Source of the DNA: Apostichopus japonicus
Taxonomy: Eukaryota > Echinodermata > Holothuroidea > Aspidochirotida > Stichopodidae
Assembly: GCF_037975245.1 (NCBI RefSeq)
Contig: NC_092579.1
Span: 26,771,666 to 26,835,665, forward strand
DNA length: 64,000 nt
Direction: 5' to 3'
Below, piece by piece: positions 15,097-64,000 of the stretch (position 1 is its first letter; every line of letters begins with the position of its first letter). The translations under genes were made by a program, and so were the position numbers. Under the pieces are notes generated by a model that saw only the letters and a program-made list of their open reading frames with translations, did not search any database and was not told where the DNA came from.

Positions 15097-15109
15097 TATT
15101 CCCCGCCTA

Positions 15110-15609: not shown

Positions 15610-15706
15610 GACTGGACGACATACATTAATCTTGGAGTGACCCCAACTCGGGACCTTATAATTGCAAGGCACCGGCCTTAACCACTGAGCTACAGTAACT
15701 GGGCTA
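15610..15706 (-). mobile_element. tRNA-derived SINE head
   Basis: The minus strand reads tagctcagtggttaaggc, which fits the pol III A-box consensus, then about 30 bases later ggtcccgagttgggg, a degraded B box. It could be a decayed tRNA gene, but no clear acceptor-stem pairing is visible, so a SINE head is more likely. Confidence 0.6.
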
Positions 15707-16806: not shown

Positions 16807-17700
16807 TTAAACACATTTGGGATGTGTAGCGATTAAAGGTGTAGCGGTTGCGGTGTTTTTCTGCAATTGATTCGAACCTGTCGTCGCAGCCCAAGCTGCT
16901 AGTTTCGGGGGGCAACGATCCCCCCGATGTAGAAGGCTTTCCTCCTCTGGGAAGCGGGAGTAACCGTCCTCTGTAACCCCGAAATCTAGGGGTCGACCTC
17001 GTCGTCTAGGCCGGACAGGTTGACCGACGTTCTGCAAACCAGAAGTTCCTCACCGGGGGACAAATCAGGTTGCATTCTTTGGTCTGGGATTGATCGTGGT
17101 GTCGCGGCCGGGTGTTCAGTGCCCGTATTTGTCCTTCCCTCTCTGAGGCTGGGGATAAGTATATGTCCCTTCGCCGTGGGAACCTCGTTCGGGGCCGGCT
17201 CTCTTTTCGGATTGGGCGCTCTGGGGGCCCAGCAGTTGTTACTCTCGTCGGCCCCCGGCCTCGGGATCGGCCGCGGCTCCAGCTAGGAGGTCTGCGGACC
17301 GGGTTTGTGCCCCTGCTTCCCCGTTCTGGGGGCCCAGCAGTCGTCGATCTCATCGGTTCCCGGCTCCGGGACCGGCTCTGGGTCCGTAGTGGGGCTTTGG
17401 TTTCGGGCTCCCTATGGAGTCTCGTCGGACCCGGGCCCTCCGAAGCCCATCTCTCGGGACCCAGCAGTCGATTGTAGCTCCGGTTCCCGGCTTCGAGGCC
17501 GGTCTCGGATCCGGAGTGGAACCTCGGTTCTTCACTCCCTCTGGGGTCTCGCCGGACCCGGGCTCCCGGAGCCCATCTCTGTGTGTACCACGCCGAGTAC
17601 CACTCTCCTCGACCCGGACATTTTGTCCGTTCCGGTCGGAATTTCTAATGGGCTTTACATTGGCCTTTAGCCTTGCCCTTGCCTCCCCCTTGGTCATACA
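16807..17700 (-). pseudogene. Gag-like region of the DIRS-like element, frame-broken
   Basis: The segment is GC-rich, unlike its surroundings. Its minus-strand frames encode Pro/Arg/Gly-rich peptide with a recurring CWAPR or CWVPR motif (three times, in different frames). Near the 3' end lies PPKLAAWAATT, resembling the PKLA-x-W segment of DIRS ORF1 proteins. The reading frame shifts and stops several times between 17697 and 16807, so no single intact protein results. Position upstream of the recombinase fits ORF1/gag. The homology is recognised by eye only and is weak. Confidence 0.45.
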
Positions 17701-17822
17701 ATCCGGACGTCGCCGGGACCTTGGGTTCTGGTCGGAATTTCTAATGGGCTTTACATTGGCCTAGGCCTTGCCCTTGCCTGCCCCCTTGGTCATACAATCC
17801 GGACGTCGCCGGGACCTTGGGG
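17635..17822. repeat. Tandem duplication of about 95 bp in the DIRS leader/gag region
   Basis: Copies at 17635-17725 and 17730-17822 share ggtcggaatttctaatgg, ggctttacattggcct and cggacgtcgccgggacc with only a few differences. The high identity indicates a recent duplication. Confidence 0.88.
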
Positions 17823-19866: not shown

Positions 19867-20004
19867 ATGAGAAGGAAGGTTGGTGACCCGTGAAGCCGGG
19901 TCACAGAGGGTGCACAGTGTTAAAAGGTTACCAGGACATTCTAGGCGCGGTAGAATGAGGTGCATAGGTTGGGGGGAGACAGGTAAGCGAGGAACGAAGT
20001 AAAT
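19867..20004 (-). repeat. Right inverted terminal repeat of the DIRS-like element
   Basis: Starting atgagaagg and running through ggtgacccgtgaagccgg to cgaagtaaat, it is the reverse complement of the left repeat over about 120 bp. This is the upstream end with respect to the minus-strand genes, so it should hold the element promoter. Confidence 0.88.
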
Positions 20005-23000
20005 GACGTGTATGTCACCTGAAGACTGTTTCTCTTCGTTGTCAAGTCACAGTCTGTCTGAGATCTGGGACAATGACCTGCTTATCGTATTAAGCTGAGA
20101 CAACTTTATTACAAAATATTAGTGACAAGCCCCGAGGAGTACATATCAGAATTGACAAAAAAATTACCAAGCTTTCCCAGCCAAGCCCTGAAGACGGTAA
20201 CCAAAAATTTGTTCTTTCTTCAATTAACAAAGGTTACAGGCTGATCAAAAGTGACCATGCAGATCTTTTGTTAAAGCTTTTAGGGAACTGAAATTAGCCA
20301 ATTGTTTCACAACAACATGTTTTGTGACATACTTTTAAAAGGCATTAAAATTAAAGGTTGCCCATTTTTAGCTCAACAGTTATTCCATGATAGAAATAAG
20401 TAGTACTGTTTGGCCAAACGATTTCCAAAATAACCTCTCTGGAGTCTGAAGGTTTTTACCCTCTAGAGGTACAAATTAAAGACAATATGAGTAATCTACA
20501 GTATTTGTACAGGTTTTGTTGATTGATCATCTCACAAAGTTTGGCTTTTTCGTCGGATTTTTTACCTCACAGATGTAATGGTTTTTGCATTTCAACCAGA
20601 GGTTTCTGACATTTTCTGATGCTTTGGACCTATGACAGTTATTTTCTTACTGTATGTGAACTAGGACAAACTACCATTTTCAACTTGGTGCAACTTTTCG
20701 TAGTATCGACAAACTAACCACATTAATGCAGAGGGTAACATCTGCTGTCCACTGTTTTTTTACTACGTAACTTCTACTCTGATAGGCTAGATTGTATACA
20801 AGCAGTACGGTATTCAAATCGCATTCTTAATAACTTAACTCTTAAATAATGCTGTATCATATACCTGTGCTACACATTCCCAAATTCCTACACCATTTCC
20901 CCCCCCCCCTTCCACAAATATTTTGTCAAAGCTGGTTACTATAGTCCATAGGGAAATCAAACGCAGCGACTTGTAAGAACAAATGACACATTCCACACAC
21001 AAAAAAGAAGGAACCTTTGCTGTTTACAAGTCTTTTGATACCCACACATAATAATCAAAACTGATATTCCTAGAGGCACCATATCATTCAAACCTAAATA
21101 GAAGTTTTTTGAATTAAATCAGAAAGAGAACTAAAGACATATATACAGATCAGTGATCACAGCATTGAGGTTCAAATGCAATGGACACAAAAACTAATTT
21201 TGAAAAAAAATTTCAAGTTTCGGGCTGCCGTTTACATGTAACTACTGTGTTTGATCAAATTCGTGTAAGATACATATTATAGTTGAATCACCATTACTCT
21301 CTTTAAAGTTGTTACTGTACGTGGTGACAGAATTTAATGGTGAATTATATTGAAATATTGAAATTAGGCAAAAACTTTTCCAAATGAAGCAAGGATAGAT
21401 CTATGTTGTTAAAGCATCTTTTTTTTCAGCTGAAATTTGATAAATGTTTCAGTGTTACTTCATACAGTAGGTAAATCACATAACAAAGTTACTCAGTAGT
21501 TACTAGTTAGTTTGTTGATCAAGTTTTATTTCCGGTAGCAAAGCAAAAGTCAAATATTTTGAAATTTACTCTGGTGTGCGTTTTAAAACGACTATGGAAA
21601 GTGTCTGGTCGATGAAAACTATTGAATGAAAGGATTGAATCAAATTCAATTCATTCATTAAATTCATTCTGTGAAAAAAACTGAAATCTAGAAACTCGGA
21701 TGTAATAGTTTGAATAATTGCAATCTTATCTGCAGCAAAACTCATAGGTTTGAATTTCCGAAAAAAACTCAAAAAACGGCTTTTGGTGCTCAGGCATTTA
21801 AGTTTTAGGATCAGAATGGTAACCTCCCACCACCCCCACCCCCTCCCACCCCTCCTCACTTTCTTTTAGTTAGTTCCAGGGTTACACAACTGTGTGTGAA
21901 TATTGCATGGCCAATCAGAAATTATGTAATCTGAGAAGCCAGAACAAACTTGAGCTTTCATGGAATGCAGGTTTGAAAAAGATTAAATGTGAATGACACA
22001 TGTTACCATACTCTTGCCTTCAGGTTTATCGCCGGTCGTCTCTGTCAAGGTGTAAGAATTAAAAATTTTATCATAAGAGTCATAAAAACTACAACCGATT
22101 TCACGTTATCATCGAGTCCTTTCAACTCACAGGAGAATTGTTGTGATACCATTTGTACTTGACCACAGGCCTTGTAATCATTTGTGTCGGTATGAATCAG
22201 TTTTCAATATTCAATAGCTAGCGTCAACACCTAGATGATCGAGCATGAATAATATGGAGTGCAATGGACTGGGTTAATCCCCGGCACAAGAAAAAACAAG
22301 GTACCCTCCAGCTAAACCCTTCAAATCTTTGTCAGAGGAGGTTTAGTACTATAGCTAAGGCTATTTTTAAAGGCAATGAAACAGTAAAAGAATAAAGGGG
22401 CAAAAAAGGGGTCAAAAATATGAAACTATGGGGCCACCTCTTTTGTCAATTTCTAAAGGGATTATAAAATATCTTTTGCTGTTGCAGTATTGCTTCGCGA
22501 CAATTTTATCGTCAGTAGTAAATGCTAAATATTGCATATATGTAAACTGTACCAGTTCCAAAGACTGTCGATTTCCTGACAGGTTTAGTACACCAAACCT
22601 ACAGAGTAACATTCAAATCAAAATTGAAAAGAAAGATGCCCTTCTAGATGACTTCCTTAACGACTTATGAATAATTAATTAACGAATATTCGCATTTTCC
22701 TACTTTAATTCAGAGAATCGTGAGGCCACCTCTTTCCCACAGTAAGAATCACCAATTTAAGCAACTTTAGACAAAATTTAAATGATCCATTTTTTTGTCC
22801 ATTCTGCACCAAAGCACTGCCTTTCAGGCATCCATTTTAGCTATCAAACAATACAAAAGATACAGTAGTTGAGTATAAGAGCCTATCATGCTATTTCCCT
22901 GGTTAAAGTAACTCTTATCTTTGATGCTTCAAAGAAAACAAACAATCCAAACTTACTTTAAAAACTAGAAATCAAAAGCCTTGTACAAAGTAAATAAATG

Positions 23001-24072
23001 TTGGTCTAAGAGGACTCCCAGAAAATGGGTGTAATGGCCTAGAAATGGGGGGTTTTATCCACAGTAAACAGAAAGGGACTTCAAGTGTCTATAGGAGGTC
23101 AGATAAGAATAAGACTGAAGAAACACAAATAGCTAAATTTCCAAACACTTGAGATGACTTGAGACTACCTGCAAAGAGCATTAAAGTGGTTTCAGCAAAA
23201 CACTCTATTATACTGGATCTCCTGCAATGACCCACACTGGGTTCTTCAATACAGCAGGGTCATCACTTCCATTTTGCCACCAAATAAGCTAGGAATTCAA
23301 ATAATGGTCAGCCATGTCTCTGGATTCAACAAGCATTCTGCGCCCATTGTCAATGCATTTTCCTCTTTATTTTCTTTCTCATTTATCACTTCTCTCGGGT
23401 CAGGAGAAGTAACATGGTCAGAGCCTCAAGAACAGAGTTCTTCAGAAAAGATTTTAGCTACTTTCTTGTTTTTTAGCAGTGATTTTTAGGTAATTACTTC
23501 TTATTGATGACCCATAGAAAGTTGGTATTTAAAAAAAGTGTCCAGATTTCAACAAGTTTAACATGTGTTCCTGTGAGCTATGGGCTATAGAGACCACAGT
23601 AGTTGAAATATTATACATACAGCATCCGCATGTCGGATTCACAATACGAAATGTAACATACTTTACCTGAATTTTGATCTGTGACACGGTTACAACAACA
23701 AAACAACACCTCACCAATAAAGATAATCATGATAAATTTGAACAGGAAAGATAAACAAAAGTAACATTTGAAACTAATCATACCCAATGCCTAAATCAGA
23801 TAATAAGCATTTAAAAGGATTGTCTGGTGGCCCAAAGAAGTTACCTTAAAAAATAGTAAATAATTTTCCAAACATGTTGTCAAAGTATGAGAACGCTAAT
23901 GTTGCGTTTGACAGAGAAACGATTTTTTAATCGTTATGGATAGACATTTCAAATATGATTTGAACAGTACAATACGTGACGTCAGCTCTGCCATAGCAGA
24001 TTGCGTCATAACCCACCCTCCGCACAGTACCTATACGGTAATCACAACAAAAACAGCGTGTGTATACAGATA
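20005..24072. other. Non-coding stretch, no gene recognised
   Basis: AT-rich DNA without splice-bounded coding frames. A plus-strand frame at 22428-22670 begins with a hydrophobic stretch followed by three Cys, but it has neither promoter nor homologous feature and is probably chance. A C-rich/CCACC run lies at about 21827-21857. Confidence 0.55.
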
Positions 24073-24586
24073 AATTTCTTCCTTAATTTCCGGTGAAATT
24101 TCTTAAAAATTAGATATGTTTTCAAAAACTCCTTAAGCCACCATGTACTTGAGCGGTGGTTCCGTGGTCTTTGTGTAACACAAGGTAAATTTTAACAGCA
24201 GACTCTGAGTTGTTCAGGCTATGCATCGCGCTATCCAGCTCCAACGCGAAAAATGTTCGCATGTAGGCTGTACTCAAACGTTGACAATCGGACAGTTCTG
24301 CGAAGCCTAAGCTTTTCAGCGCTATATTCTGCTCTGACAACGATTCGATCAATTTCTTCAATAATTTCCGGTGAAATTTCTTATAAATTAGATATGATTT
24401 AAAAAACTCCTTAAGCCGCAATATATTTAGTAGATCGGTGGTTTCGTGGTCTTTGTGTAACACGATAAGTTTTAACAGCAGACTCTTCGTTGTTTATACA
24501 TCGCGGTATCCAGCTCCAGCGCGAAGAATGTTCGCGTGTATAGGCTACTGTAACGTTTACAATCGGACAGTTCTGCGATGACATCG
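24073..24586. repeat. Tandem duplication with 277-bp period
   Basis: Copy 1 (24073-about 24315) and copy 2 (24350-24586) share aatttccggtgaaatttctt, aaaaactccttaagcc, gtggtctttgtgtaacac, ttttaacagcagactct and caatcggacagttctgcga in the same order, with scattered differences. The two overlapping minus-strand frames here are shadows of it. Confidence 0.87.
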
Positions 24587-25944
24587 ATCCCGCCAAGTTT
24601 CATCTTTCGGTTTAACGAATACTTTATAAGTTTCCTTTTACTGTTAATTTGATCCGTGAATTTTATTTCAGCGAGTTCGAAGAACAGTTAATGAACTGTG
24701 GTTTGAGTGTGAGTGTACTATGTGTAACGCTATACAAGTACACCAACTGAGCATCGTAGTATATACGTTCGCGAGTATGTACGTTATATATATGAGGCAA
24801 TTCAATGTGCTTACACGTGAGTTAATTTGCTGCGGAATTGGGAGTGCTAACTTCAAGTCGCCTGTTTTGCCTATCTGCAAGCACTACGTCAAACACCATA
24901 TTGAAGCGTTCGAACAAACGGTACTTTTGGAGAGAAACTGGTGAATTTGAAAACCAGATTTCTACAAGAAGAAAATGTCGAATGGGGACAATTTTTACAT
25001 GGTTAGAAAGAGAAAAATAATAACTACAAGGACAATGTATCGAAATCTTCCACCAGACAATTCCTTTAACAACTTCGTTTGATAGTTTTGGGGAAGTTTA
25101 TCTACACAATAAAGGAACGGAACTATTCCAAAATTTCTTTTAAAAAACAAACAACTGCTGTGAGTAAACCCAAGTCCAATATTTACCAAGAGAATGTAGT
25201 CTGAGGGGGTGGGGGGGGGGAAGAGATTTGTTTGCCAAGCAACCTTGTCTTTGCATGATGTTTTTAACCATATATTCCGTTGCAGGTCAAGTGGCAATAT
25301 AAGCACAAATGCTTCTTAACTTTGCTTCATCTACAGAAGGTGTTTCCTTTCATCAAATGTATTTTTTTTTTTTTTTTCTTTCACTTATTGACACCTAAAG
25401 TATAAGTATACATACCAATTCCACAGAGACCTTTGTTAATTTTCGCTACAGTACAGTGTTCATATCCGTAAGGTCATACAGCTAAGTAATGCTTTAAATT
25501 TCAGTAAAAAAATGGTAATAAATCTATAAACAAGGTAAGAAAATTGTCACAACAGATTGCATCAAATCCCATGTTGTGTCATTAGCCCGAGGAGGAAGTG
25601 ATGGCAAGATGTGTTAATACCGTAGAGATGCTTACTAATGCTTGTGCTATCGATTATGAATGAATCTGTCCTCTATTTCCTATTTATCCTCTGTGACGAG
25701 ACACCAATCTCTGCCCGCATCTCTCCTGCTTCTCAGATGGGGACACTATGACAACTTATGGAACAGACAGCCACAGGCTAAACATCAAATGACATCTGCA
25801 GAGAATAAAAGTCCTTCCATGGGGGAAGATGTTGGCAAAGATGGTAAAAAAATGGGGGGGGGGGAAGTGAGTAGACAAGATTTATGGTGTGAAAAAACCC
25901 AGAATGTTGTAAATTCTGACTGAAGGGACTGATGAGGCAAGACA
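24587..25944. other. Non-coding stretch, no gene recognised
   Basis: Only short frames without coding character. A G run lies near 25205-25220 and a poly-T run near 25362-25378. Confidence 0.5.
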
Positions 25945-26119
25945 GGGAGAATAGTCAGAACATAAAGAATTGTGTGAGTGTTACAGCAGGGAGCTGCATT
26001 AGAGTAGCAGCTCCCTGGTTACAGTATGTTGAAACTACTGTAGTCCGGTGTGGGAGAATAGTCAGAACATAAAGTATTGTTTGAGTGTTACAGCATGTTG
26101 AAGGACCATAGTCAGGTGC
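25945..26119. repeat. Tandem duplication with an embedded 11-bp hairpin
   Basis: gggagaatagtcagaacata begins both copies (25945 and 26052), followed by a shared gagtgttacagca. Copy 1 additionally carries CAGGGAGCTGC, nine bases, then its exact reverse complement (25987-26017). The hairpin segment is absent from copy 2, so it was either inserted into copy 1 or lost from copy 2. Confidence 0.75.
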
Positions 26120-26418
26120 TCAAGAGCATGACATATGCAGAAAATAAATCAATAAAATGAGCCATACTGTGAGTGTGTGGTCACTGTGGTGGGGGAGGGG
26201 GCAACAGGTGTGGGAGGATTGGTGTGTGAAATTGGCTGTCTAAGGGACCTAGTTTGCTGTGAAAGGGTAGAGGTGAGGCAACCATTTTCTATGAGGGAAG
26301 CACTGATACTGTTTCTGTCAGTGACCTAGGTCAGTGGTTTTGTATTATGTACTATATATTTCAACTACTGTTGATAATTATATAGTGGTAAACAAGATGC
26401 TTTATAGGAACACTGTAT

Positions 26419-26563
26419 ATTGGGAGCACCACATTTAGTGGGAGCACCCTATAGTGACTGAGAGCACCATATAGTGGGAGCACCACATATAGTGGGAGCA
26501 CCACATATAGTGGGAGCACCACATACAGTGGGAGCACCATATATAGTGGAAGCACCGCATAGT
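26419..26563. repeat. 18-bp minisatellite, about 7 imperfect copies
   Basis: The unit gtgggagcaccacatata recurs in tandem, with the central copies nearly identical and the outer ones degraded. Since 18 is a multiple of three, both strands stay open and give a six-residue periodic peptide. I take that as a by-product of the repeat, not as a gene. Confidence 0.85.
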
Positions 26564-28892
26564 GAGACCCTGGGTTGAACCCAGTGGGTTCCCTTGAAGG
26601 TACTAACGACTAACCCATTGACACGTTGGTATATAGACAGCTGACTTATACGCAGCATTCAGCTTGAAGAGGCACACTTCCTGTAACACTCAAGTTACGG
26701 GGACACAGGACATCGACTGAAGTACTTCTATAAAGGTAATAGGTATGATGTCAATAACAAGCAACAGTTTCGAGTACTTTGAAGTGAATTCTGTTAATTA
26801 ATGAACCATAATTTTTAATGATATGGTGATTGCATCAACCTGAAAGTGAGCAAAACCTTAATTTGCCAATGATACAATGTAGTTGAACAGATTGAGTTCA
26901 GTGCATGGCCATTTCCTGTTCCGATAACTTTCTTTTTCTGGGTAAAACGCTTACACGCAACTTTCATCCACAATTGTTCTATGCAGTATTAATTAGTCTC
27001 TTTTTTTGTTAAACTTTAAACCATCAGGAATTGACACCATCGGGAATTTGAATCAAGTTCAAATAGTGTTTCTCACAAGAATGTCCTTAAATTTTCAACA
27101 ATGAGAGAGAGGCTGCTACAAAACCACATTCTTTTCATTGTGTGAATTGATCACATATTAAGAACGTAAAAGGACCTCATTTTCCACCATCCACAGAAAA
27201 GAAGGGAACCTTTAGAAAACCTTTAAAAAAAACAAGGTCCATTGCTTGAGCTTATTGGAAATAAAAAACAGCATTTCTCCCGCCCCCCCCTGAATCATCT
27301 CAATCTGAGCTCACACATCCATTATTTTCACCATCAGCTGATCCGTTAACTTTTGCCTCATTTTAAAACTGGCAGCAATGACAAACACAATGGATTATAA
27401 AAGAGAAGAACAAATAACCCTCCACAAAGACATCCAGTCATTTTCCTAAACTTAAGGGTACCTTTTTAAAGGAATTTGTATTTTAAATAATCCAATAAAG
27501 TTTATTGAAAAAATCCAACTGAATTCATCCACCAACTGACTTCACATGAACCCATTATGCTTGAACCAATATCAATGTACTGAGAATATGCATGAATCGA
27601 TAGCATACTGGCACATTACATCTTCTTTTCTTTCTCGATATTTACTCTTCAAGAACAATCTAAACAAGAAGGGGACCAATTATTGAATACAGCAGTCATT
27701 GATTGCCAGAAATACAGTGAAAAGTCAATCATATCCAAATATAAGACGCTCAGCCTAGCGGAGAAGAGGATGTTTGATCTGAGAAGTATGAGAGGAAGAG
27801 TCAACAGCTGACCTCCGACAGTCAGACTGAAGAGGTTAGTGACTGAGAGAGAAGCCGAAGGACCAAACAAGACTCAAGATGACAAAGACTACTATATTTT
27901 AAGTAAAGGTTAACAAACGACTATTCAGTTCACCACAATTTATCGCTGCAAAAATTCCATCAAATAAAAAATTAAGCCCTTATTTCCTTCTCTACGACTG
28001 CAGGGTATTGGCTGTTCTGCAGCAGGTCTCACTAAAAGACTATGGGGGGGGGGGGAGGGGGGGTCTTTTTTAGCTGTAATATTTTCATGAAATTAATAAG
28101 TCCCTGTAAAAACTGTACAATGAAGAAATTGCAGAGCTCTGCTACATGGCAGCCTTGTCAAAATTTATGAGGACTATTAAAAAAAATAAGTACCGTGATC
28201 TTCCACAAGAACTATATACTCACTAAAAAGGAGGATAAGTTAACATGATAATGAACCCCCCTCCCCACCCCTCAAGCCCCTCCCTTCTGTCCTTTCTTTG
28301 TTCACTGACATATGTACTATATACTTTCTATGCCGGTAACTGTCAGAAACTATGGGTACTTCCGTCCCTTAATTATGGTAACTAAAAAAAAAAGCTTTCC
28401 CATAATCCATTTCTACAAAAAAAAGATTTCTCATCAATATGAAGCAAAGGTTCTACCATTAGAGCACATGGTGTAAACAATTGAAAAAGAAGAAATATAT
28501 TTAAATCTTCAGTTAACGTTATTAGCTGAGACTTAATATACCACACATTAAAAAATCACTAAGTTTGATATTAAATGGCAAGCAAAACTTCAATACAGAC
28601 TCAGAAATAATTTAAGTTAAGAAGGAAAATAAACAATTCAAATCCTTACCACCAGCCTTAGCTTCTGAATTAGGAGTAAAATCTACCTTTACATTAAATA
28701 ACGTTTATCTTTTCATCTTCCTCTCCACTTTATACGTTCGTTCCACCAAACACACCTTATCCTACATATCTAACAACAAACAGTAGTTTCCCCCTTTAGA
28801 CAAATATGCTTTCCTCCCCTGCAGAAGGGAGGCACTTTCTCTCTATGGCAGCGGTGAGCTACCGTTTTTCTACGTGGCGGAAACTAAAAGTA
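26564..28892. other. Non-coding stretch, no gene recognised
   Basis: AT-rich sequence with homopolymer G and C runs (about 28045-28066 and 28254-28280). No exon, RNA gene or transposon end was recognised. Confidence 0.55.
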
Positions 28893-28925
28893 ACCTTCAG
28901 ACTATGGAACGCCAAAAGGACCACA

Positions 28926-29178
28926 GTGACATGTACCACTACTAATTTGACATGTACTACTACTAATTCGAAGTGTACTACTACTAATTTGAAGTGTAAT
29001 ACATGTAAAATGTCGCGTACTACTACTAATTCGAAGTGTACTACATCAAAAATGTCGCATACTACTACTAATTCGAAGTGTAATAATACTAATTTGAAGT
29101 GTACTACATCTAAAATGTCGCGCACTACTACTAATTCGAAGTGTACTACATCTAAAAAGTCACGTACTACTACTGAAT
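28926..29178 (+). repeat. 21-bp minisatellite in the left foldback arm
   Basis: About twelve tandem units of the type tactactaattcgaagtgtac occur, alternating with variants containing aaaatgtcgcg. The period is a multiple of three, so the frame stays open and encodes a TTTNSKC-type heptapeptide repeat inside a 194-codon frame (28806-29390). The same array occurs inverted at about 30657-30902. Whether it is translated is unknown; no signal peptide or splice context supports a gene. Confidence 0.88.
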
Positions 29179-29456
29179 TGGAGAGATGGCGCTATTCACA
29201 ATCTTTCCGATACCATGTCATCGAGTTGCGAATCTGCATTAAAATAATGCTGAAGAAAACATTCTTCAATACTCTGTTGATTCAAATGTCTATTTTACAG
29301 TTTATACCTTTAAGGTCTGTGGCAAATATAGAAAATAGCATAAAGTTAGGCACAGCTGGGGAATCAAAAGCATTCTTGACATTTCAATGACGGGGAAATT
29401 GCTGCTTGTGAATAATAGTGTGTATAACAATTTTAAGAGTTAAAAACTGGTGTATT

Positions 29457-29458
<2 letters not shown>

Positions 29459-29496
<38 letters not shown>
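29459..29496. repeat. TA dinucleotide microsatellite
   Basis: An uninterrupted run of 19 AT units lies just inside the left foldback arm, in the loop. Confidence 0.95.
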
Positions 29497-29499
<3 letters not shown>

Positions 29500-30222
29500 A
29501 AAACCTCGATGGACATGTCAAAAAAATAGAAAACGGCGCCCAAACGCAAAATGATGCTTTACATTCAGAAAAGACCGGTGAGGTGCTACTGTTAATGAGC
29601 TAAAGTTAGGCTTCCTAGACTTTTTCTATATGCTAGACCAGGCTGCGGCTAGGATATAGTGTCTAATTTAAATGATATTCCAAAACTGCTACTTGTTTAA
29701 ATTATATACAGGTCTAGTACCGTATGCATTTTAGGTGTTCTACAAATGGCCTGAATATAGGCCTACTAAAGTACTAGGTCATGGATTAATTCCGAGCATA
29801 ACTTAAGAGCCCAAATATACGTTACCGTTTAAATTTAGATTTTGGCACAGTAATGTGTGTATATGCAGAGCTTAGTATGCGTAGGATTAGGAGTATATAT
29901 GTCCGTGTCAGTCTTCCTGAATGTTCCCCTTCTCCTTGCCTTCATTACTAATACTATAATCACCATTGTCTGTGACCATTGGGCATCACAAAAAATAAAA
30001 TCCAGTGGTGGCAAAGCAACAAGTTTTCGAAGCCCCAGCAGGTGGAACAATCGATCCCCAAGAATGTGCTTAATGTAGCTTCAGTTTTTAACTCTTAAAA
30101 TTGTTATACACATTATTATTCACAAGCAGCAATTTACCCGTCATTGAAATGTCAAGAATGCTTTTGATTCCCCAGCTGTGCCAAACTAGTATATGCTATT
30201 TTCTATATTGGCCACAGACCTT

Positions 30223-30510
30223 ATTATTATTATTATTATTATTATTATACAAAATTTCTGTAGCGCCTTATCCAATCAGAAATTGCTCTAAGGCGCTTTA
30301 CAGTAAAATACAAACAATCATGATATACAAATATATAAATCGATAATGTAAGGTATAAAAAGGGTAGAAAATTTGTTAAATACCATCTGACAATAAACTG
30401 TATAAAAACTGCAAATGTAAAAGCGAAAATGATACAAATTCTTAAAATTTAAAATATATATAAATGTGAAAATTTTTTAATTTTAAAAGCGCTATAAACG
30501 CAAAATGGAA
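30223..30510 (-). mobile_element. SINE-like/L2-tail insert with target-site duplication
   Basis: The right foldback arm is interrupted by 288 bp flanked on both sides by acctt (30218-30222 and 30511-30515). The left arm preserves the empty site, with acctt once. On the minus strand the insert ends in gtaaagcgccttagagc, then ggataaggcgctac, then an AAT microsatellite. This matches the general form of 3' tails of L2-like LINEs and of the SINEs that borrow them. The first part is AT-rich with no clear pol III boxes, so it may be a 5'-truncated LINE or a SINE. Confidence 0.85.
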
Positions 30511-30937
30511 ACCTTAAAGGTATAAACTGTAAAATAGACATTTGAATCAACAGAGTATTAAAGAATATGTTTTCTTCATCATTATTTTAATGCAGATGCG
30601 CAACTCGATGACATGGTATCGGAAAGATTGTGAATAGCGCCATCTCTCCAATTCAGTAGTAGTACGTGACTTTTTAGATGTAGTACACTTCGAATTAGTA
30701 GTAGTACGCGACATTTTAGATGTAGTACACTTCAAATTAGTATTATTACACTTCGAATTAGTAGTAGTATGCGACATTTTTGATGTAGTACACTTCGAAT
30801 TAGTAGTAGTACGCGACATTTTACATGTATTACACTTCAAATTAGTAGTAGTACACTTCGAATTAGTAGTAGTACATGTCAAATTAGTAGTGGTACATGT
30901 CACTGTGGTCCTTTTGGCGTTCCATATCAGACTGAAC

Positions 30938-31113
30938 TATTAATTGCTATCCTTTGAGAATTCTTATGGAATTCCAATATTATCACCTTAATCAAAATCA
31001 ACCAAACAGCTGTGCTTTGAAAGAGAGGTTACCATAATAATTTCCAGCTACTAAGAATTGCTAAATATTAAAGCCCCAACAGCTCCCTGCTTACACCATC
31101 ATCATGCACTTAC
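30938..31113. other. Short gap between foldback and candidate exon
   Basis: No feature seen; possibly intronic to the minus-strand exon that ends at 31114. Confidence 0.4.
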
Positions 31114-31419
31114 CTTTATCACAGCCACCGCTACATTTAATCGCTTTTATTTCCTCAAGGTATTTCTCCAACAATGTTTTCTCTGCTTCCTGGCTTGTCA
31201 TTTTGTCCTCATTTTTCACAAGAGCAAACACTCTTGACAATTTCTTGATATTTTCATTCAATGAAATCCTATCAAATTGTCTTTGATCTCCACAAAAATT
31301 GTATAAAAAATTATGGTACAAAATATAGCCCAAAAATTTCTTCTCACTTGCACAGAACTGAGCAGCATCTATCAAAGTCTGCAACTGTCCAACACAATTA
31401 ACAAGTTTGAAGATTGATC
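31114..31419 (-). CDS. Candidate internal exon of an unidentified gene
   Basis: On the minus strand, taattttag precedes an open frame of 306 bp that ends at GATAAAG|gtaagtg, a near-consensus donor. Both borders are phase 1, so the exon could be skipped or duplicated without a frame change. The peptide is mixed helical, with five Cys including KCSGGCDKG at the end and KNEDKMTSQEAEKTLLEKYL before it. Residue composition looks like a real globular protein. No family is recognised. Other exons must lie outside or be too short to see; the candidate at 33242-33307 may belong to the same gene. Confidence 0.55.
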
Positions 31420-44557: not shown

Positions 44558-45212
44558 TGTCGGGGGAATTCCGCGAGACCGAAATTAAAGAAAAGTCCGC
44601 GAGACCGAAATAAAAAAAAAAATCCTCGAGACCGAAATTAAAGAAAGGTCTGCGAGACCGAAATTAAAAAAAGGTCCGCCAGACCGAAATTAAAAAAAGG
44701 CCCGCGAGACCAAAGGTCCGCGAGACCGAAACTATTACTAGGCCCCACAACATTGACGTAGCCAGAAATTTAGTGCGGGGCACATTTTGAGATTGATATG
44801 GGGGGGGGTCTCTGTTGAGATTTGTTTGAAAAATTGAAGGTCGTTAGATGCGATCTGGTGCAATGTTTTGCCAGTTTCATCGGGGGAATTCCGCAAGACC
44901 TTCGGTCTCGCGGACCTTTTTAATTTCGGTCTTGCGGACCTTCGGTCTCGCGGACCTTTTTTTATTTTCGGTCTCGCGGACCTTTTTTAAATTTCGGTCT
45001 CGCGGACCTTTTTTTAATTTCGGTCTCGCGGACCTTTCTTTAATTTCGGTCTCGCGGACCTTCTTTTAATTTCGGTCTCGCGGACCTTTCTTTAATTTCG
45101 GTCTCGCGGACCTTCGGTCTTGCGGACCTTTTTAATTTCGGTCTCGCGGACCTTCGGTCTCGCGGACCTTTTTTTATTTTCGGTCTCGCGGACCTTCGGT
45201 CTCGTGGACTGT
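44558..45212. repeat. Inverted arrays of a 26-bp minisatellite
   Basis: About six units of the type gtccgcgagaccgaaatt plus an A-rich filler run at 44558-44735. About twelve units of the complement (cggtctcgcggacc plus T-rich filler) run at 44881-45212. Both blocks are introduced by the same direct sequence cgggggaattccgc. Each unit contains GGTC-CGCGA-GACC, itself a small hairpin. The spacer (44736-44880) has acgtagccag and a G run, typical of other mobile-element ends in this window. The in-frame peptide is an artefact of the repeat. Confidence 0.88.
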
Positions 45213-51868: not shown

Positions 51869-51874
51869 TTTATT
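51869..51874 (-). terminator. Polyadenylation signal AATAAA of gene A
   Basis: AATAAA on the minus strand about 42 bases beyond the stop codon of gene A, the nearest canonical signal. It implies a very short 3' UTR. Confidence 0.65.
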
Positions 51875-51915: not shown

Positions 51916-54900
51916 TTACATTTCACGATCCATGTATGAAAGAAGTTCCTTTAGAATCAGTTCCCGAGTCAATGCTGCATTTGATTTGGTTCCGTCGCCA
52001 GCCCCCGTTCCAGATCCACTAATTGGAGCGGACCCATCGCCACCACCAGTTCCGGATTCAGGCACACCATCGCCACCACCAGTTCCGGATTCAGGCACAC
52101 CATTGCCACCACCAGTTCCCGATCCAGGTACACCATTGCCACCACCAGTTCCCGGTCCAGGTACACCAGCAGTTCCCGACCGATCGTCGACATTAACAGC
52201 CGCCGACCCAGATTCATTCCCTGGACCGGACCCATCAGTTCCCGATCCAGGTACAACATTGCCACCACCAGTTCCCGACCCAGGTACACCAGCAGTTCCC
52301 GATGGATCGTCGACATTAACAGCCGCCGACCCAGATTCATGCCCTAGACCGGACCCATCAGTTCCCGTTCCGGGTACAACATTGCCACTACCAATTCCAG
52401 TTACACCAGCAGTTCCCGACGGAGCGTCGACATCAACCTCTGCCGACCCAGATTGAAGCCGTGGACCGGACCCATCGTCACTTACCGATCCACCGTTGTT
52501 ATTGAATAGCATTTCGATGCCTCTGCAGTATGGAAAGCAAAAAATAAATAAATAAATAACTAATGGGGAGCGAATGTGCTTAAGAAACGGTTAGAAACGT
52601 GACATGCGTTATCTAGGGTGGGGTGGGCGTGACGTACACTCATATTTACAACCCCTACATGGGGGACCCTACATATCAGAAGCCCTACATGGGGGAAAAG
52701 GATCCAACGACCCATTGCCAGAATATACAATCTTGCGACTCGTGAAGCTGGGAGTAGGAATTTCGTTAAGGTGTACCAAACATGAAACAAAGAATAATGG
52801 ACAGGTATATACCGCGTAACGTTACACTTACTTAGCCGTTTCGCATATATCTCTCTGAAAATTCAGGAGAATATAATCTGTGATTTCCTGGGCTAATCGA
52901 ATGGTGTCAAGGTACTCGTCGATCTCTGGCGAAAACAAAAATTCGAATATATTGAAAGTCCACATTTATTGAAGAATAGGTTGTAATAATGGGTGCGCTG
53001 GTTCACATTGTTCTTACACGTCATCGACTGTATTAACTTGACCAGTCTGTATAGTTAAATTTAATACTGTTCATTTTATCTTGGACGATGCTTGAAACGT
53101 TCCGGTACCCTCAGCGCCAGAGTGGTATTAGAACAGTGTATGCTACTTGAAATTACCCCGAGACAAAAAAACACATAAACTGTGCCTGAAAACCCCCTTA
53201 AAGGGTGTGAAGACTCTCGCACAAAGAAACGCTCATGCCGGTAATCTAACCTAGTTTCGAATGAGGTGTAACAGAAGTGTTTGACACCACCATCGATCCC
53301 AGAAAATACACACACAGCTTGCTAATAAGACACTAGTGTACAGTCAATACATACAGCTACGGTCAATACCCACAATACAGTGTACATATCAGCGTGGACA
53401 TCTCAGGTCTAGAAAAAAGATAACAAAGTATCACGTTTCATTACTGTCTGTATTTTGTAGCGAAAACTCTGAAAACTCTGAAAAAGTTAACTTTCCGTTG
53501 CTTGCAAATGCCGTTAACTTTTTCAGAGCGCGGCACGCGGTTTGGGGCGAGTCTTCAATGCCTTTAAACCTATGATAGCCGTTAAAATCGATAATAACCC
53601 GCTAAATTTATTTAGATCTTACCAGATGTTGAGAGTGCATAGCTGTTAACGAGAAGATCTGCCTCGTTTCTTGCATCTTGAAGGATGTCCAACCAGACGG
53701 TCCTCAGTTTGCTAGTTATGTCCTCTATGTTTTTCACATCAGATGGAAATAAACCATATTGTTGTAGGAATGAGCCACATTGCAAGATATCTGTAAGTAT
53801 AGAGAAAGAAGAAGCACCGTATTAACTGTTAAAATTAAGGCCCGTAAAATGTGCACGGTGAAGAGATAAGATGGAACATGGGCTCGTGTATAGGGTCTGT
53901 CACCAACTAGGGAGTTATCAGTAGGGGTTAAGAAGAGATACCGTGGAAGGAGAGAGGTTTGGGTGGGGGGCGGGCGGGGGAGTACATGGAAGGCTTAATC
54001 TGTGATTTCTAATTATTCTAGCATCTACTAAGGGTCGATGTACGCTATTGCGTAACACGAAACATACAAGTACACTTTCTATTGTATAACATGTGAAAAA
54101 CACGCACAAACACATGATACATGCTATTGCGTAACGTAACGTATGAAACATGTAAACACCTGATGCATGCTAGGGCGTAACATGCCATTGCGCAACATAA
54201 CGTCTCAACATGCAAACACTGATATGCTGTGACTGATTACCTTCAGAACCAGTGTCAGCACTGATCCGGACATTGTACATCGCTGTTGACAGGTCATTCA
54301 AATTCAATAGCTTTGGGTTGAGGGTTGTAGCAATTTGATCAATCTGTGAAAAATAAAGAGTTGAAAATTTTTATTTCCAAGGCAGCCAATATTTGACTTT
54401 TCTCGTATCGGGTATAGGTAACGACGTATAACTGACATTTTCTGCTAATAGTCGACATTTTAACTTACATAGTTAAGGATTTCAATCATATCGGTCCAAA
54501 CAGGTCCATTGGGTTTAACTTGCGAGTATCTCGCTAATATGGTAGTATGAATGGCGTGTATCTCTACCAGAGTTGTAGTTAAATCCATTCGAAGGAGCGC
54601 CACTCGGTCCGCTTGAAGCATCTGCCGATACGCAGGCCTGGGATCATCTATGGTGACGTCTCTTCCGAAAATTTGATCGAATACTATTTGAGAGACAAAC
54701 AGCTTTGAAAGATTACCCTGACATCAATCAAACACACGTCTACATTAAGGCAATAGCCATATAAAAGAAGGGATATTGTTTTGAGGAATATTTCTATGTA
54801 TATACGGCTCAGCGAACGAAAATCCCTGCGTGGCGGATGGAAGAGGTGATGGCGGACGGAGGGGCGGATGTCGACCAGCCCCACAGAGGATTGCGTTGAC

Positions 54901-55244
54901 TGGTGAGACAACCATTCCAAACAATGCTTTTTTACAAAACTTGGATATCATCGTATGGGCATTTTGATAAACTATACGAGACTTTTAAATAATGTTAATA
55001 TGGCCGAACCCTGCAGCACGTGCACGTAGCATGTAAATAGTGCGAACATGGGGCGCTAAACCAACCATATCGGGGATGGGGGGGGGGCAGTCGAAACGTG
55101 TATCACTAAAATAAGCGTTTAATTTATAAAAACGACGTCCTCTTTATGTAAGGGTAACTTACCTGCACCAAAGTCTGGAAGTCCTAATGATGGAACGACG
55201 ATGGCTCCGAAGAGCGTAATAACGTAGATGATGAACCGAGCCAT
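51916..55244 (-). CDS. Gene A: secreted helical protein with C-terminal GTG/PGS repeat domain
   Basis: I assembled six coding exons: 55163-55244, 54469-54683, 54241-54343, 53623-53790, 52832-52925 and 51916-52522 (1,269 bp, 422 aa). All introns are GT-AG with phases 1,0,1,1,2. The start codon has a strong context (accaccATGG). Residues 1-21 form a signal peptide (MARFIIYVITLFGAIVV). Residues 28-220 are predicted mainly helical, with single Cys at 138 and 217 that could pair. Residues 222-400 are low-complexity Gly/Ser/Thr/Pro with Asp/Asn, built of units of about 40 aa (GTDGSGPGNESGSAAVNVDD) and 11 aa (SGTGGGNGVPE). A short helix (ALTRELILKELLSYMDREM) ends the protein. It is paralogous to the divergent gene B. 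No membrane segment follows the signal, so it should be secreted. The family is not recognised; an extracellular matrix, mucosal or cytokine-like role would be guesswork. Confidence 0.88.
52015..52480 (-). repeat. In-frame repeats in the last exon of gene A
   Basis: A 33-bp unit (ccaccaccagttccggattc on the plus strand, then an 11-base variable part) is repeated about four times near 52030-52165. Longer units of about 120 bp repeat near 52165-52450. All lengths keep the frame, as expected for a repeat domain under coding constraint that can change length by slippage or unequal exchange. Confidence 0.87.
53476..53528. repeat. Perfect 16-bp hairpin in intron 4 of gene A
   Basis: CTCTGAAAAAGTTAAC at 53476-53491 is followed after 21 bases by its exact complement at 53513-53528. 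It may be a MITE relic or a folded intronic element; nothing further supports either. Confidence 0.8.
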
Positions 55245-56052
55245 GGTGGTATACCACTGCGGGAGAAGTAGTGCAAACTGCAACAAATTTGATTCTCCTT
55301 ATAAATATCCGGCTATGGAAGTGTACGGAGACTTAAATTGACCAAGAAAGGGCGTAAATGTTTCAGGGTCCTATCATGTAAACTTGAAATCCCAAAAGGC
55401 TCACCTAGGCCTCCGTAGGTACTTTTGTTTTGTGGCAAGCATCAAGAAAAATCCTTTGAATTCCATGTCCAGCAGGTTTCCATTGTATCAGTTGTCTTAT
55501 TTGAATGTCCATTTAGGAGATGTACGTACAGGCCAATCATATGTTAAACAGACTTAACATTTAGTACTTAGCTATATGATTTCGTGCACCTGTTTCTTCC
55601 TTTGGGACCGGTGTGCATGTGTTAGTTTGTTTTCTCGTTCTTCTAACTATTATTATTGAAACTATTAATTCTTCTAACTATTATTATTGTGTGAGTGTTT
55701 GTGGGTTTTTTTTTGGTATGTGTGTTGCGTTTTCGTTTACAAATTGTGAGTAAATCAGTGTTGTGTATATAGGTAACGAACCCACGTTCCGTAAAGGCTA
55801 GTAATTTACATATGAATCGGTAGCAATTTCACTCAGCTGATGAGATTGTGTAAATAACATACCTTGAGTTATTGAGACATTTAAAAGCGTACGTATCAGA
55901 ACTGTGCATTACAGGCTGTTCAGGCTCGATATACGGATGCCCAGTGCGTCGATTCAGTAAGTCAAACTTGGAGAGTACCCGTCACTGGTCGCCATTGTAA
56001 TTTATTACGGAGTTATTAGATAACTAATAGAATCTTGGAACGGTTTGTCACC
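55245..56052. promoter_or_regulatory. Shared divergent promoter region of genes A and B
   Basis: Only 808 bp separate the two start codons, which point in opposite directions. On the gene A side a TATA-like element TATTTATAAG (plus-strand 55298-55307) lies about 60 bp upstream of the start, which allows a short 5' UTR. On the gene B side no clear TATA is seen. The region contains no coding frame. Shared control of the two paralogues is inference from arrangement. Confidence 0.6.
55298..55307 (-). promoter_or_regulatory. TATA-like box of gene A
   Basis: On the minus strand the sequence reads gatatttataagga, 54-63 bp upstream of the gene A start codon. With transcription starting about 30 bp downstream, the leader would be about 30 bases. 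Confidence 0.5.
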
Positions 56053-58226
56053 ATGGCTGCTACTGTAACCACGTCAGTGCTGCTTCTGTCCATTTTAATC
56101 GGAATTACAAGTAGTCGTCTACCCGCGGATAATAACCTGGAGATCTCTGCTTTTAAAAGATCTGGTGAGTCTGTGTTTTGAACTTTTTCCGTTTTCACTC
56201 AAAATGCAATACATCTTAGCAGAGTTTTGCAACCCCTCACCCCTTTTTCTCGTACCCTTGCCCCCCCCCCCTTTCAAGGATGAGTCCGGTGGTTTTAAGC
56301 AATCTTCTGGGGTGCCACGCATCGTTTTCATTACGATATTCCTTGTTCTACATAGTGCAGTCCGATGACCATGTCATCCAGACGCCAATCCCTCTAGTCC
56401 TGGTGGATAAGGTCCAGTCATTGCGGGAGGATTTGATCACGATCACGGCACTGCTAGGCACGTATGTCCTCCTGTATGAAAAGACCAGCTTCAACCCTCC
56501 AATCATACAAATTGTGGACGTTTTATTAGTAGTAAGTATATAGCCATATTTGTGGTGGGTATACCCTGTCTGTTATCACACTCTCAATATAGACTCATGA
56601 AATCAGTAAGCAACAGTACGGGGATTTCAAAATATATAAAATTTAATTACCAGGGGAGGAGGGGAGGGGTGGGGTGGGGTGGGGGGGGGGTTGTGCTCGT
56701 TGGTAATACATTGTATCCTGCAGGACTCCTGCATAAACACTGGCCATAAACACTGCCACACCATTTCAAATTTGGATTCAAAACTGTTTCATTTCCTCTT
56801 ATTATATTCTCCGTAGTTAGAGAGTCTGTCCCAGAATATCCGACCAAAGGAAGACCAAGTCGATTGGGTGACGGAGGTACAAATCCGGTATGGCGAGGTC
56901 CTACAGAACCCCACTGGTGAGAACTATAAACCACGATAAGGCTTTAAACTGGCAGTGGTCACCATTTCTGTTTCATTATTTAACGGAAGATGTCTTGATG
57001 GTTTAACATTTTACTTAAACCAAATCGCCAGTATTGCTTTGTTTCAACTTGCAGTGAGACAGATAACTGATATCTTTCAACAGTACTTACCTGCAGGTTC
57101 TGACTGTCCAAGATCACCCAGGACAATGAGCGAGTTTTTAATTAGATAATAAAATACCCCATGCAGTAAGGGGAGGGGATGATTGGACTGTCATTGATGA
57201 TGTTAATATGCGCGTCCCAAAAACAGACCTGCGACAGATATTGTCCGGCAAGGGATTGTGGAGTGTGGGGTGTATATCACCTTGTATTTCCTCTATCCCA
57301 AATGGAGGCGGTGTCTCAAAATTGGGGACAGAATCGATCCCGTTATAGCTTCGCCGTTGTCACAAAGAACTGAAATAAAAAAGTTAGGCTTTGCGATGTC
57401 AATATACAATGCATAAATTTTGGTTTGTCTTTCTTTTTAGCCGGACTATTATGCAGTGTTGAAGCCATTAAGAACGAAGATTTACCAGCAGGAATTGTGT
57501 CCTGGCTAGACGAACAAAACCCCATCCATGAAGCTTGGCAACAGATCGCAAATGACGCCAATATTGATGCACAACAACTTTATCAGAATCCAACGATGGA
57601 TATAAAAGGTATGGTTTGTAGTGTTATCGTCTGTGCTTTTAATTTATTACGAACTATAAGGTACCGCAACACCTTTTGCAAATTAGAAGCTTGTATGACA
57701 AATATGACAACATGTTTTACAAATTTTCCTCACCTCACGGGCAGAGAAACTTTCTAGCGACATTACTTCTAACAATACTGCTTTAGAAAAGAACCCGCCA
57801 GCAGTTATACTTCTCAGGGGGTTTTGTGTGTATTTCTCTAGAATAAAATTAGGGTATCAGCACCCGCTAGCCCCCCCCCCCCCCCACTGGCAGTACATAA
57901 ATATATAATAAATAACTAACGTGTATGTGCTGCACAACCTCAACAGTAAAAATGCCTTAACACGGTTTCAAATGTTGCTAAATATAGCACCATTTTGCAT
58001 CTGAGCACCCTCCATTTTACCGAAATGTGGTAGGACCCCCCCCCCCCCATCTGACCCCTCACTGGACGACTTTTGGCCACCTAGTACCAATGAATTATGA
58101 AATACATTTCGGTTTCTTTCTTTTTTATTCCTAACAGAACTTGTTAAAAGACTGGATGGAATTGAACTTCTCCTCCGCTTTACGAGATACGCCGTTGATG
58201 GTTTGGGACGGAGTGCTTGCTATTAG
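56053..58226 (+). CDS. Gene B: secreted helical protein, paralogue of gene A
   Basis: Five coding exons: 56053-56164, 56356-56531, 56817-56916, 57441-57608 and 58138-58226 (645 bp, 214 aa). All introns are GT-AG, phases 1,0,1,1. The start context is gtcaccATGG. Residues 1-21 (MAATVTTSVLLLSILIGITSS) form a signal peptide. The remainder is mainly helical without further membrane segments. Exon 4 is 168 bp, exactly as in gene A, and matches it without gaps at Leu, Cys134, Pro, Asp, Trp, Ile, Asp-Ala, Ala. Exon 5 matches at Glu, Leu-Asp, Ile, Thr, Tyr, Arg and Cys213, the penultimate residue. The C-terminal repeat domain of gene A is absent. The short frames at 56280-56543 and 57425-57757 are shadows extending past the real splice sites. 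Function is unknown. Confidence 0.88.
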
Positions 58227-58860
58227 TCATACAAGTAGGTAAAGTATACAGCTGACAGTACACGCGAAGACAAGGGCAAGACGAAGTGACGGACACATAG
58301 GCATACATAGTCATACACAGGCATACATAGGCTATAGTTATAGGTCTAACGCAAGGTTGTGTTTGGTCGGAAAGGAATGTTCACATCCTACTGAATAGTG
58401 GGTTGCATTGGGCAGGGATGGGCGGAGTAACTTCCAGCAGCGCTAAACTTTACGTGTACAATATGAGCATATTTCTACGTTATACGGTGAGGGGGGGGGG
58501 GGTACTTCCGCCGTTCGGTTCCCCTGCTGCGAAGGTATATTTACACATTGTTCATTTCTCAATTTAGAAACTGCATTATCCAAGTTTACCTGGAAGGTGA
58601 TACCTGTTTACTTTTCTTTTGTGTAGATCTGCAGAGAATTTCCATCGAGGCACATCAGAACATATACCTCGTCTTGGACCGCTCGTACAACGTCGCTTAT
58701 GTTTAACAAACACCACAGCCGAAAATGTAAACCGGGACTGCGGCATTGCTGTCAAAAAACCAACAATGCAATGATGTCCTAAAAAGGACAAGTTTTTAAA
58801 GTTATGTAAACATTTCAAAGATATGGAATTCATGTTTACAATTAAACTACCTCAACTGAC
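58227..58860 (+). other. 3' UTR of gene B with probable UTR intron
   Basis: Twelve bases after the stop codon there is a donor-like AAGTAG|gtaaag (58239). An acceptor-like cttttgtgtag precedes 58627. Joining them would put the last intron of gene B where gene A has its intron 5. A variant polyadenylation signal ATTAAA at 58841-58846 could end the transcript. G and C runs occur in the intervening DNA. Confidence 0.45.
58841..58846 (+). terminator. Possible polyadenylation signal ATTAAA of gene B
   Basis: First plausible signal downstream of the gene B stop on the plus strand. Its use depends on the UTR intron proposed above or on a long unspliced 3' UTR. Confidence 0.4.
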
Positions 58861-62646: not shown

Positions 62647-64000
62647 GTGATCCTATTTCTGTGAATTTTGTTCTCAGCTCTCACGGCTAAGAACTTCATC
62701 CGCAGGGAATACCTAACTCCTAAAGTTAATTAAGATATCGTAAGTCGACATATCGAGTATAGTAATCTCGAGATTTCGACCTATACTTCCGACATTTTAA
62801 TTTCACCATTTCTACTGTCTACCAATTACAATAGCATGTTACACCTAGGCACACAAGCTGTAAGAAGCGATAACAAAGAACATGCTAAAAAAAATAGAAC
62901 ATTTTAATGACAACTCACCTCTCTTAATCCGCAGTGTTTATCTCCATTCAGGTTTCTTATTCTTTCTTCAGCGTGTACAAGTTTTTCATGTTTCGTTTAC
63001 CTAAACATCACGTATCGATTTCTCTTTCGTTTGTGACGGTGCTTCGGTTAAATATTTTTTCCAATTTTGTTTATTAAAAGTTATCATACTCACTTTTTCT
63101 TTGTCATTCTTGTTATGTTAGATTTCTTTGATGGCGGATGTCGATCGCAAAATATAATATGTCGAAAACATGCAATTTTCATGGATTTTTCTTCTCGATA
63201 TATTTTCCTTGAAAGAAAATTCCCTTTAAGCTTTGGATCAACAGAATCCATTGTAAAACTCGAAGACAGCTGAAAAGTAAAAATTTAGCTGAAAAATTAT
63301 TTATGTGATTTTCTTTCATGTTACGTTTCTCTTGTACACTGGTGAGCTTTCCAATCATAATTGATCTTATATTACTGCACACATCACACACAAAAAACTG
63401 TAAAAGTGTTAATGTACGACAAACAAACAACAACAAACAAACAAAGGTGTAGGAACGTCTCGACTAACCAGAATATGTTAAACTCAATCAGTGATCCTAT
63501 TTCTGTGAATTTCGCTTTCAGCTCTCATTGCTAAGAACTTCATCCACAGGGTATACTTAACTCCTAAAGTTAATTAAGATATCGTAAGTCGACATATCGA
63601 ATATACTAACCTCGAGATTTCGACCTATACTTCCGACATTTTAATTTCACCAGTTCTACTGTCTACCAATTACAAAGCATGTTACACCTCGGTACACAAA
63701 GCTGTAAGAAGCGATAACAAACATAATGTTAGATGATAAATGGAACATTTTAATGACAACTCACCTCTCTTAATCCGTCTTAATCTCCATTCAGGTTTGG
63801 TATTCTTCTTCAGCGCGTACAATTTTTCCCTGTTTCGTTTACCTAAACATAACGTTTCGATTTCTCCCTCGTTTGTGACGGTGCTTCGGTTAAATATACT
63901 TTATTCTACTTTTTCTTTTTTAAGTTATAATACTCACTTTCTCTTCGTCATTCTTGTATTGTTATCAAATTTTTGCCGATGTCGGTCGCAAAATATAATA

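Follow-up and report, generated by a model that had tools for sequence, protein, structure and literature searches.

A head-to-head pair of genes for predicted secreted helical paralogues in the sea cucumber Apostichopus japonicus, one with a proteoglycan-like tail

Gene models at the locus

The DNA analysed here, referred to as the window, comprises 64,000 nucleotides (nt) of Apostichopus japonicus (assembly GCF_037975245.1, contig NC_092579.1, forward-strand positions 26,771,666 to 26,835,665). Coordinates given below are those of the window. It contains two genes, A and B, which lie back to back on opposite strands and whose coding regions, as rebuilt from the sequence, together occupy exactly 51916-58226. 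The two genes are established as paralogues by alignment and gene architecture, and both are predicted to encode small, acidic, secreted helical proteins, gene A having an additional exon for a repetitive Gly/Ser-rich tail. Gene A, on the reverse strand, has six coding exons with intron phases 1,0,1,1,2 and encodes 422 amino acids (aa); gene B, on the forward strand, has five coding exons with phases 1,0,1,1 and encodes 214 aa. All nine introns, five in gene A and four in gene B, have GT-AG borders, and both start codons lie in CACCATGGC. The features of the locus are as follows.

Gene A
55163-55244, reverse strand: exon 1, 82 nt, ending in phase 1; signal-peptide-like N-terminus; start codon in ACCACCATGGC
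54469-54683, reverse strand: exon 2, 215 nt, ending in phase 0; GT-AG sites
54241-54343, reverse strand: exon 3, 103 nt, ending in phase 1
53623-53790, reverse strand: exon 4, 168 nt, ending in phase 1; contains Cys138
52832-52925, reverse strand: exon 5, 94 nt, ending in phase 2; contains Cys217; a stop follows K221 when the next intron is retained
51916-52522, reverse strand: exon 6, 607 nt; acidic Gly/Ser-rich repeat tail of 201 aa, C-terminal TRELILKELLSYMDREM
51869-51874, reverse strand: AATAAA polyadenylation-type signal, 41 nt past the stop codon

Spacer
55245-56052, no strand: 808 bp between the start codons of A and B; possible shared bidirectional promoter
55300-55307, on the A side of the spacer: TATTTATA-like element

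Gene B
56053-56164, forward strand: exon 1, 112 nt, ending in phase 1; signal-peptide-like N-terminus; start codon in GTCACCATGGC
56356-56531, forward strand: exon 2, 176 nt, ending in phase 0
56817-56916, forward strand: exon 3, 100 nt, ending in phase 1
57441-57608, forward strand: exon 4, 168 nt, ending in phase 1; contains Cys134
58138-58226, forward strand: exon 5, 89 nt including the stop; contains Cys213
58841-58846, forward strand: ATTAAA polyadenylation-type signal, 614 nt past the stop codon

An initial annotation of this DNA had described a head-to-head pair of secreted paralogues. Its coordinates, the lengths of five paired exons, the phases 1,0,1,1 and the 808-bp gap were all reproduced, and the back-to-back arrangement was recovered in the rebuilt models. 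Its pairwise comparison of exons did not include the sixth coding exon of gene A, which lies inside the same coordinates and has no counterpart in gene B. Because of this extra exon, the full proteins differ in plan. A longer exon 2 of gene A, starting from an upstream acceptor (249 nt), was rejected since it breaks the frame, and the 215-nt exon is the right one. Together, these data give two coherent gene models, read from DNA alone. The A. japonicus gene set may already list both as hypothetical proteins.

Homology between genes A and B

When compared by BLASTP with composition correction off, A and B are 22% identical over 215 columns, with an expect value (E) of 7e-9 for a one-sequence database. 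Smith-Waterman alignment of the mature cores gave z scores of 10.4 (BLOSUM62) and 12.9 (BLOSUM45), and with neither matrix did any of 5,000 shuffles reach the observed score. Since amphipathic helices can inflate alignment scores, we also used pattern-keeping shuffles, where hydrophobic residues are permuted only among themselves and polar residues likewise. The mature cores then had a z of about 8; none of 10,000 shuffles reached the observed score of 94, the highest being 91, and the top shuffle of an earlier run of 3,000 scored 90.

The likeness is stronger in exons 4 and 5 (z 8.3 and 10.0, no shuffle out of 5,000) than in exons 2 and 3 (z 6.2 and 4.8, with one and three of 5,000 shuffles). 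Exons 4 and 5 align without gaps over 84 columns with 19 identities, a result reached by none of 100,000 plain shuffles and, among 100,000 pattern-keeping shuffles, by 39 when judged by identity and by six when judged by score. The gapless register scores +53, and all others within offsets of 30 score -27 or less. There are exactly two cysteines per protein, A138/A217 in one and B134/B213 in the other, located at or near both ends of this gapless block.

Some of the searches speak against paralogy. Neither gene retrieves its partner in the assembly search, and tblastn between the two gives weak matches, those in exon 2 having E values of 14 and 1.5. Hidden Markov models (HMMs) built from single genes and split by exon did not place the partner gene among their four best chains over 214 kb, where reversed-sequence chains scored up to 25.7 bits; the sole overlap with a partner was one match in B's fourth chain (18.9 bits) on exon 2 of A. 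The alignment nevertheless exceeds the shuffles, and the cysteines, the phases and the length of exon 4 (168 nt in both genes) agree independently of it; on these grounds the paralogy of A and B is established by sequence comparison. With phases 1,0,1,1 in common, gapless exons 4 and 5, one cysteine pair and hydrophobic N-termini, the pair shows the conserved gene architecture proposed in the initial annotation, as well as the low residue identity (23–24%). The latter had been taken as a sign of fast evolution, but it may simply reflect an old duplication.

Relatives and family status

No Pfam family matched full-length A or B at E≤10, and no NCBIfam family matched B or the core of A at E≤1. 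Searches against PDB sequences returned chance-level matches only, over helical stretches. Among the candidates rejected for this reason were methyl-accepting chemotaxis proteins (three sequences, best E 1.1), botulinum neurotoxin chains (three sequences, E 0.07–0.29, helical stretches), YjeQ (E 1.5) and GMP synthase (two sequences, best E 0.71). Pattern matching to viral contigs gave 43 stretches, none of which was confirmed by tblastn, and scans of the window for Rfam families and tRNAs found nothing. The absence of a recognised domain thus held in Pfam, NCBIfam and PDB sequences.

The whole assembly (671,581,487 bases in 35 contigs) was searched for further members, with matches taken at E≤10. 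A search with B returned its own five exons and nothing else (five of five matches), and among the matches listed for A all five were its own exons, with one further candidate scored. An intermediate of exons 4 and 5 retrieved A and B only (three of three matches). The tail of A matched itself and, weakly and with its repeat part, one site on contig C23 (E 0.859). A model built from both proteins was run with exon chaining over 214 kb, comprising the window and 150 kb of flanks. It recovered A at 458.5 bits and B at 414.0 bits and nothing else above the control; the next chain scored 24.1 bits, under the reversed-sequence control of 26.8. An unchained run covered 134 kb. Given that a search with A misses B, and one with B misses A, a third member as distant from them as they are from each other would be missed. 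As far as these searches reach, the family consists of two genes in the assembly, and more distant members are possible.

Lineage-restricted secreted families are common and are mostly left as hypothetical proteins. A search of the literature on helical cytokines of echinoderms, on orphan genes in sea cucumbers and on core proteins of chondroitin gave no report of the A-B family, although other terms might show one. The part of the Holothuria glaberrima genome preprint that was available names THAP and SRCR families and not this one (PMC13228809). The proposal of an undescribed family fits the Pfam, NCBIfam, PDB and assembly searches.

The initial annotation had further offered an immune or mucosal role as an example. 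The 808-bp spacer contains two GATA-type matches and one Ets-type match, and no NF-kB, STAT or Runx consensus. The label is unsupported beyond its plausibility, these sites being weak evidence either way.

Secretion signals and predicted structure

Both N-termini are hydrophobic and signal-peptide-like, with maxima of 2.52 (A) and 2.20 (B) in 15-residue Kyte-Doolittle windows; this fits the signal peptides that the initial annotation placed in exon 1 of both genes. The cores are acidic, with isoelectric points (pI) of 4.36 for A and 4.51 for B, and the tail of A has a pI of 4.05. Hydrophobicity has helical periodicity in both proteins (z 3.2 for A and 2.1 for B).

AlphaFold2 run with B as the first sequence gave, as the top of five models, one composed of helices with no strands, with a predicted local distance difference test score (pLDDT) of 69.6 and a predicted template modelling score (pTM) of 0.66. 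From residue 51 on, the mean pLDDT was 74–92 in 15 of 17 ten-residue blocks, and 63 and 67 in the remaining two. Past the N-terminal part, the predicted helices span residues 51-77, 87-104, 113-126, 130-140, 146-152, 157-178 and 184-213. A loop of about nine residues (78-86) separates the first two long helices, and one of about five (179-183) precedes the last. From these loop lengths and the cysteine positions we infer an antiparallel arrangement with a disulphide. Both proteins are predicted as all-helical, with the model of B of middling confidence and that of A poor.

At E≤10, Foldseek gave 172 matches in PDB and 155 among viral structures, none of them reaching E≤0.001. With VIA-align the best Z was 7.2 over 106 residues at 2.8 Å, a value that common helical arrangements also give and no higher than is typical of the tool when a clear relative is lacking. 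Neither a cytokine nor an apolipoprotein is among the 50 rows listed for PDB by Foldseek and by VIA-align, by which neither is excluded. The models are safely read as a helical protein, probably with a bundle of an ordinary kind, which is not assignable.

The tail of gene A

The tail encoded by exon 6 contains 59 Gly, 25 Ser, 23 acidic and six basic residues, and is built of 41-aa and 11-aa units, corresponding to periods of 123 and 33 nt. Splice site, phase and repeat lengths divisible by three are the grounds for taking it as coding. The dipeptide SG occurs 17 times, compared with a shuffle mean of 7.34 (one of 20,000 shuffles reached 17); SGxG occurs eight times (mean 2.12, seven of 20,000), and [DE][GA]SG three times, always as DGSG (mean 0.30, 61 of 20,000). 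An acidic residue stands one to four places ahead of SG in ten of the 17 cases. The motif E/D-G/A-S-G is given in a review as the attachment motif in chondroitin core proteins of Caenorhabditis elegans (PMC8418075), and the tail of gene A has three strict copies of it. If intron 5 is retained, the same lysine is followed by TAA, giving an A protein of 221 aa that ends at K221, close to the 214 aa of B.

Proposed mechanism and rival explanations

We suggest that a single gene, encoding a small, acidic and secreted protein of all-alpha fold, was duplicated long ago in inverted (head-to-head) orientation to give A and B. Past the signal peptide, each core would fold into a compact bundle of helices, about 190–200 residues long, with one probable disulphide joining its two cysteines, of which the first opens exon 4 and the second lies close to where exon 5 ends. 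B would be the plain soluble form, and A the same core with a flexible, acidic, Ser-Gly-rich tail from the extra exon. This tail may be modified by glycans, most likely chondroitin-type chains on the DGSG sites, which would hold A in the extracellular matrix or mucus. Retention of intron 5 could act as a splice switch to a soluble, B-like form of A ending at K221, and the bundle itself would act as a ligand or a binding protein. Secretion, the helical fold and the disulphide of both proteins are what the predictions suggest; for glycan attachment, matrix tethering, the splice switch and the role as a ligand or binding protein we speak by inference only. The explanation as a whole, with old head-to-head duplicates, secreted helical cores and a soluble B set against a glycan-tethered A, is offered tentatively, at somewhat below an even chance.

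Several observations weigh against this explanation. The models of both genes, tail included, are read from the DNA sequence. With A as the first sequence, the AlphaFold2 model was poor (pLDDT 44.9, pTM 0.36), if all-helical and free of strands, and only one of the five models of B was good, the other four having a pLDDT of 34.7–50.2. The strand-like periodicity of A, 20.6, a figure without a shuffle control, is close below its helical value of 24.2. Gene B has later hydrophobic stretches that nearly equal its N-terminus, 1.95 from residue 87 on and 1.93 from residue 64 on; these make a membrane segment possible, which speaks against the secretion of free B. As to the tail, the SG rates overstate the case because repeat copies are not independent; other reading frames are also open across the repetitive sequence, and differences among the repeat copies do not favour the frame of A, the codon-position test being uninformative. 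A warning that proteoglycans are not identifiable by motifs alone is given in the same review (PMC8418075).

Three other functions could be served by the same genes. A and B might be helical signalling ligands, cytokine- or hormone-like, for a cell-surface receptor, with the tail localising A in the manner of matrix-bound growth factors. The secreted size, the all-helical prediction, the single cysteine pair and the five-exon core are consistent with such ligands, and the first two phases, 1 and 0, are those of long-chain class I cytokine genes. The last two, however, are 1,1 as opposed to the 0,0 of class I cytokines, the loops of about nine and five residues in the B model are short where an up-up-down-down bundle has long crossovers, and there is no match in Pfam at E≤10 and no credible one among PDB sequences; we regard this role as unlikely. 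The helices with mostly short loops and their amphipathic periodicity would also suit carriers of lipids or small molecules in the coelomic fluid, of the apolipophorin III type, in which the helices open on lipid. Here a bond between the two conserved cysteines would lock the bundle, the pI of 4.4–4.5 makes the core strongly acidic and Pfam gives no match; a carrier function is likewise unlikely. Alternatively, the proteins could be structural or mucus components, where the Gly/Ser-rich tail of A bears load or forms a gel and the helical core serves assembly only. Repeat units that are multiples of three (33 and 123 nt) and the 59 Gly in 201 residues point in this direction, whereas the B gene model has no such tail and that of A is short for a structural protein; the probability we give to it is as low as for the two preceding roles.

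It is also conceivable that the gene models are wrong, or that A and B are unrelated and owe their likeness to chance between amphipathic helices, as the failure of the single-gene models to find the partner gene and the weak tblastn matches in exon 2 might be read. This is very hard to reconcile with an alignment above all 5,000 plain and all 10,000 pattern-keeping shuffles, with the independent agreement of phases, exon 4 length and cysteines, and with the lack of a rival gapless register for exons 4 and 5, and we give it hardly any weight. An extension of the proposed mechanism is that there is a holothurian family of such bundles in which splicing of the last intron sets whether the product is soluble or chondroitin-bearing, gene A being a core protein of fucosylated chondroitin sulfate beside the type IX-like collagens that have been suggested. 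We regard this as a long shot. If true, it would link the fucosylated chondroitin sulfate of sea cucumbers to a specific folded secreted protein.

Other features of the window and the assembly

An inverted repeat is located at 28903-29262 and 30567-30926, with arms of 360 nt that are 99% complementary and 1304 nt apart; its inner arms (29344-29449 and 30082-30187) are 97% complementary, and both arms contain tandem repeats of 21, 42, 63 and 105 nt. It looks like a young foldback-type element. A second inverted array, at 44614-45196, has a 26-nt unit with TTCGGTCTCGCGGACC, and its longest arms of 121 nt are 89% complementary and 186 nt apart. A GC-rich island at 14–20 kb includes an open frame of 339 aa on the reverse strand (14122-15138), whose end we take, by eye, for the tyrosine recombinase of a DIRS-type element; Pfam gave nothing for it at E≤0.01. 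The forward-strand frames 63740-64000 and 69366-69791 (window numbering) have a nearly identical stretch (MEHFNDNSPLLIR...) in common, likely an interspersed repeat, and the former was negative in Pfam at E≤0.01.

Past the window, at about 88321-88704 (reverse strand) and 94073-94456 (forward strand), two opposed frames have similar stretches that read Gly-rich and then K-P-x-W...L-x-x-x-x-K-N-F-Y-x-E-H-P. They may be exons for the N-terminus of an RNA helicase of the DDX5/DDX17 type, and they are possibly another head-to-head pair near the A-B locus. Elsewhere in the assembly, contig C29 contains several COX1 fragments with TGA codons (14745-31219), separate from the mitochondrial contig C35. 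They may be copies of mitochondrial DNA or belong to a mitochondrial scaffold that was left unplaced. C35 itself has 16,099 bases, and its tRNAs and reading frames, with genes identified by eye, seem to follow the order of sea urchins and sea cucumbers.

Comparison with known systems

Long-chain class I cytokines are like A and B in being secreted, all-helical and of similar size, with a multi-exon core and first phases of 1 and 0; A and B differ from them in the later phases 1,1, the short predicted loops between helices and the lack of a sequence match. Proteins of the apolipophorin III type are secreted bundles of amphipathic helices, about 190 residues long and with short loops, whereas A and B have the conserved cysteine pair, are acidic and match no Pfam family. 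A further parallel is abalone lysin and sp18, secreted helical paralogues that have diverged yet share a gene structure. Lysin is strongly basic, unlike A and B, and a gamete role is unsupported.

Gene A alone resembles serglycin and the proteoglycan form of CSF1, in which a large late exon of its own encodes an acidic stretch that is rich in Ser-Gly and has E/D-G-S-G sites. It differs from chondroitin sulfate core proteins in having no Pfam match to a known one, the attachment being putative. Sea cucumbers are known for fucosylated chondroitin sulfate. In a proteomics study of the A. japonicus body wall, well-known chondroitin sulfate proteoglycans are given as not detected, and attachment of fucosylated chondroitin sulfate via type IX-like collagens is suggested (PMC7599334). 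Since classical proteoglycans were not detected there, gene A with its strict chondroitin motifs is a useful candidate, and modestly interesting. Orphan secreted families are of a known kind; what is new here is a head-to-head pair with a common core and a proteoglycan-like tail on one member only. With its gapless exons and one cysteine pair, it provides a clean homology anchor and a testable contrast between a core with and a core without the tail.

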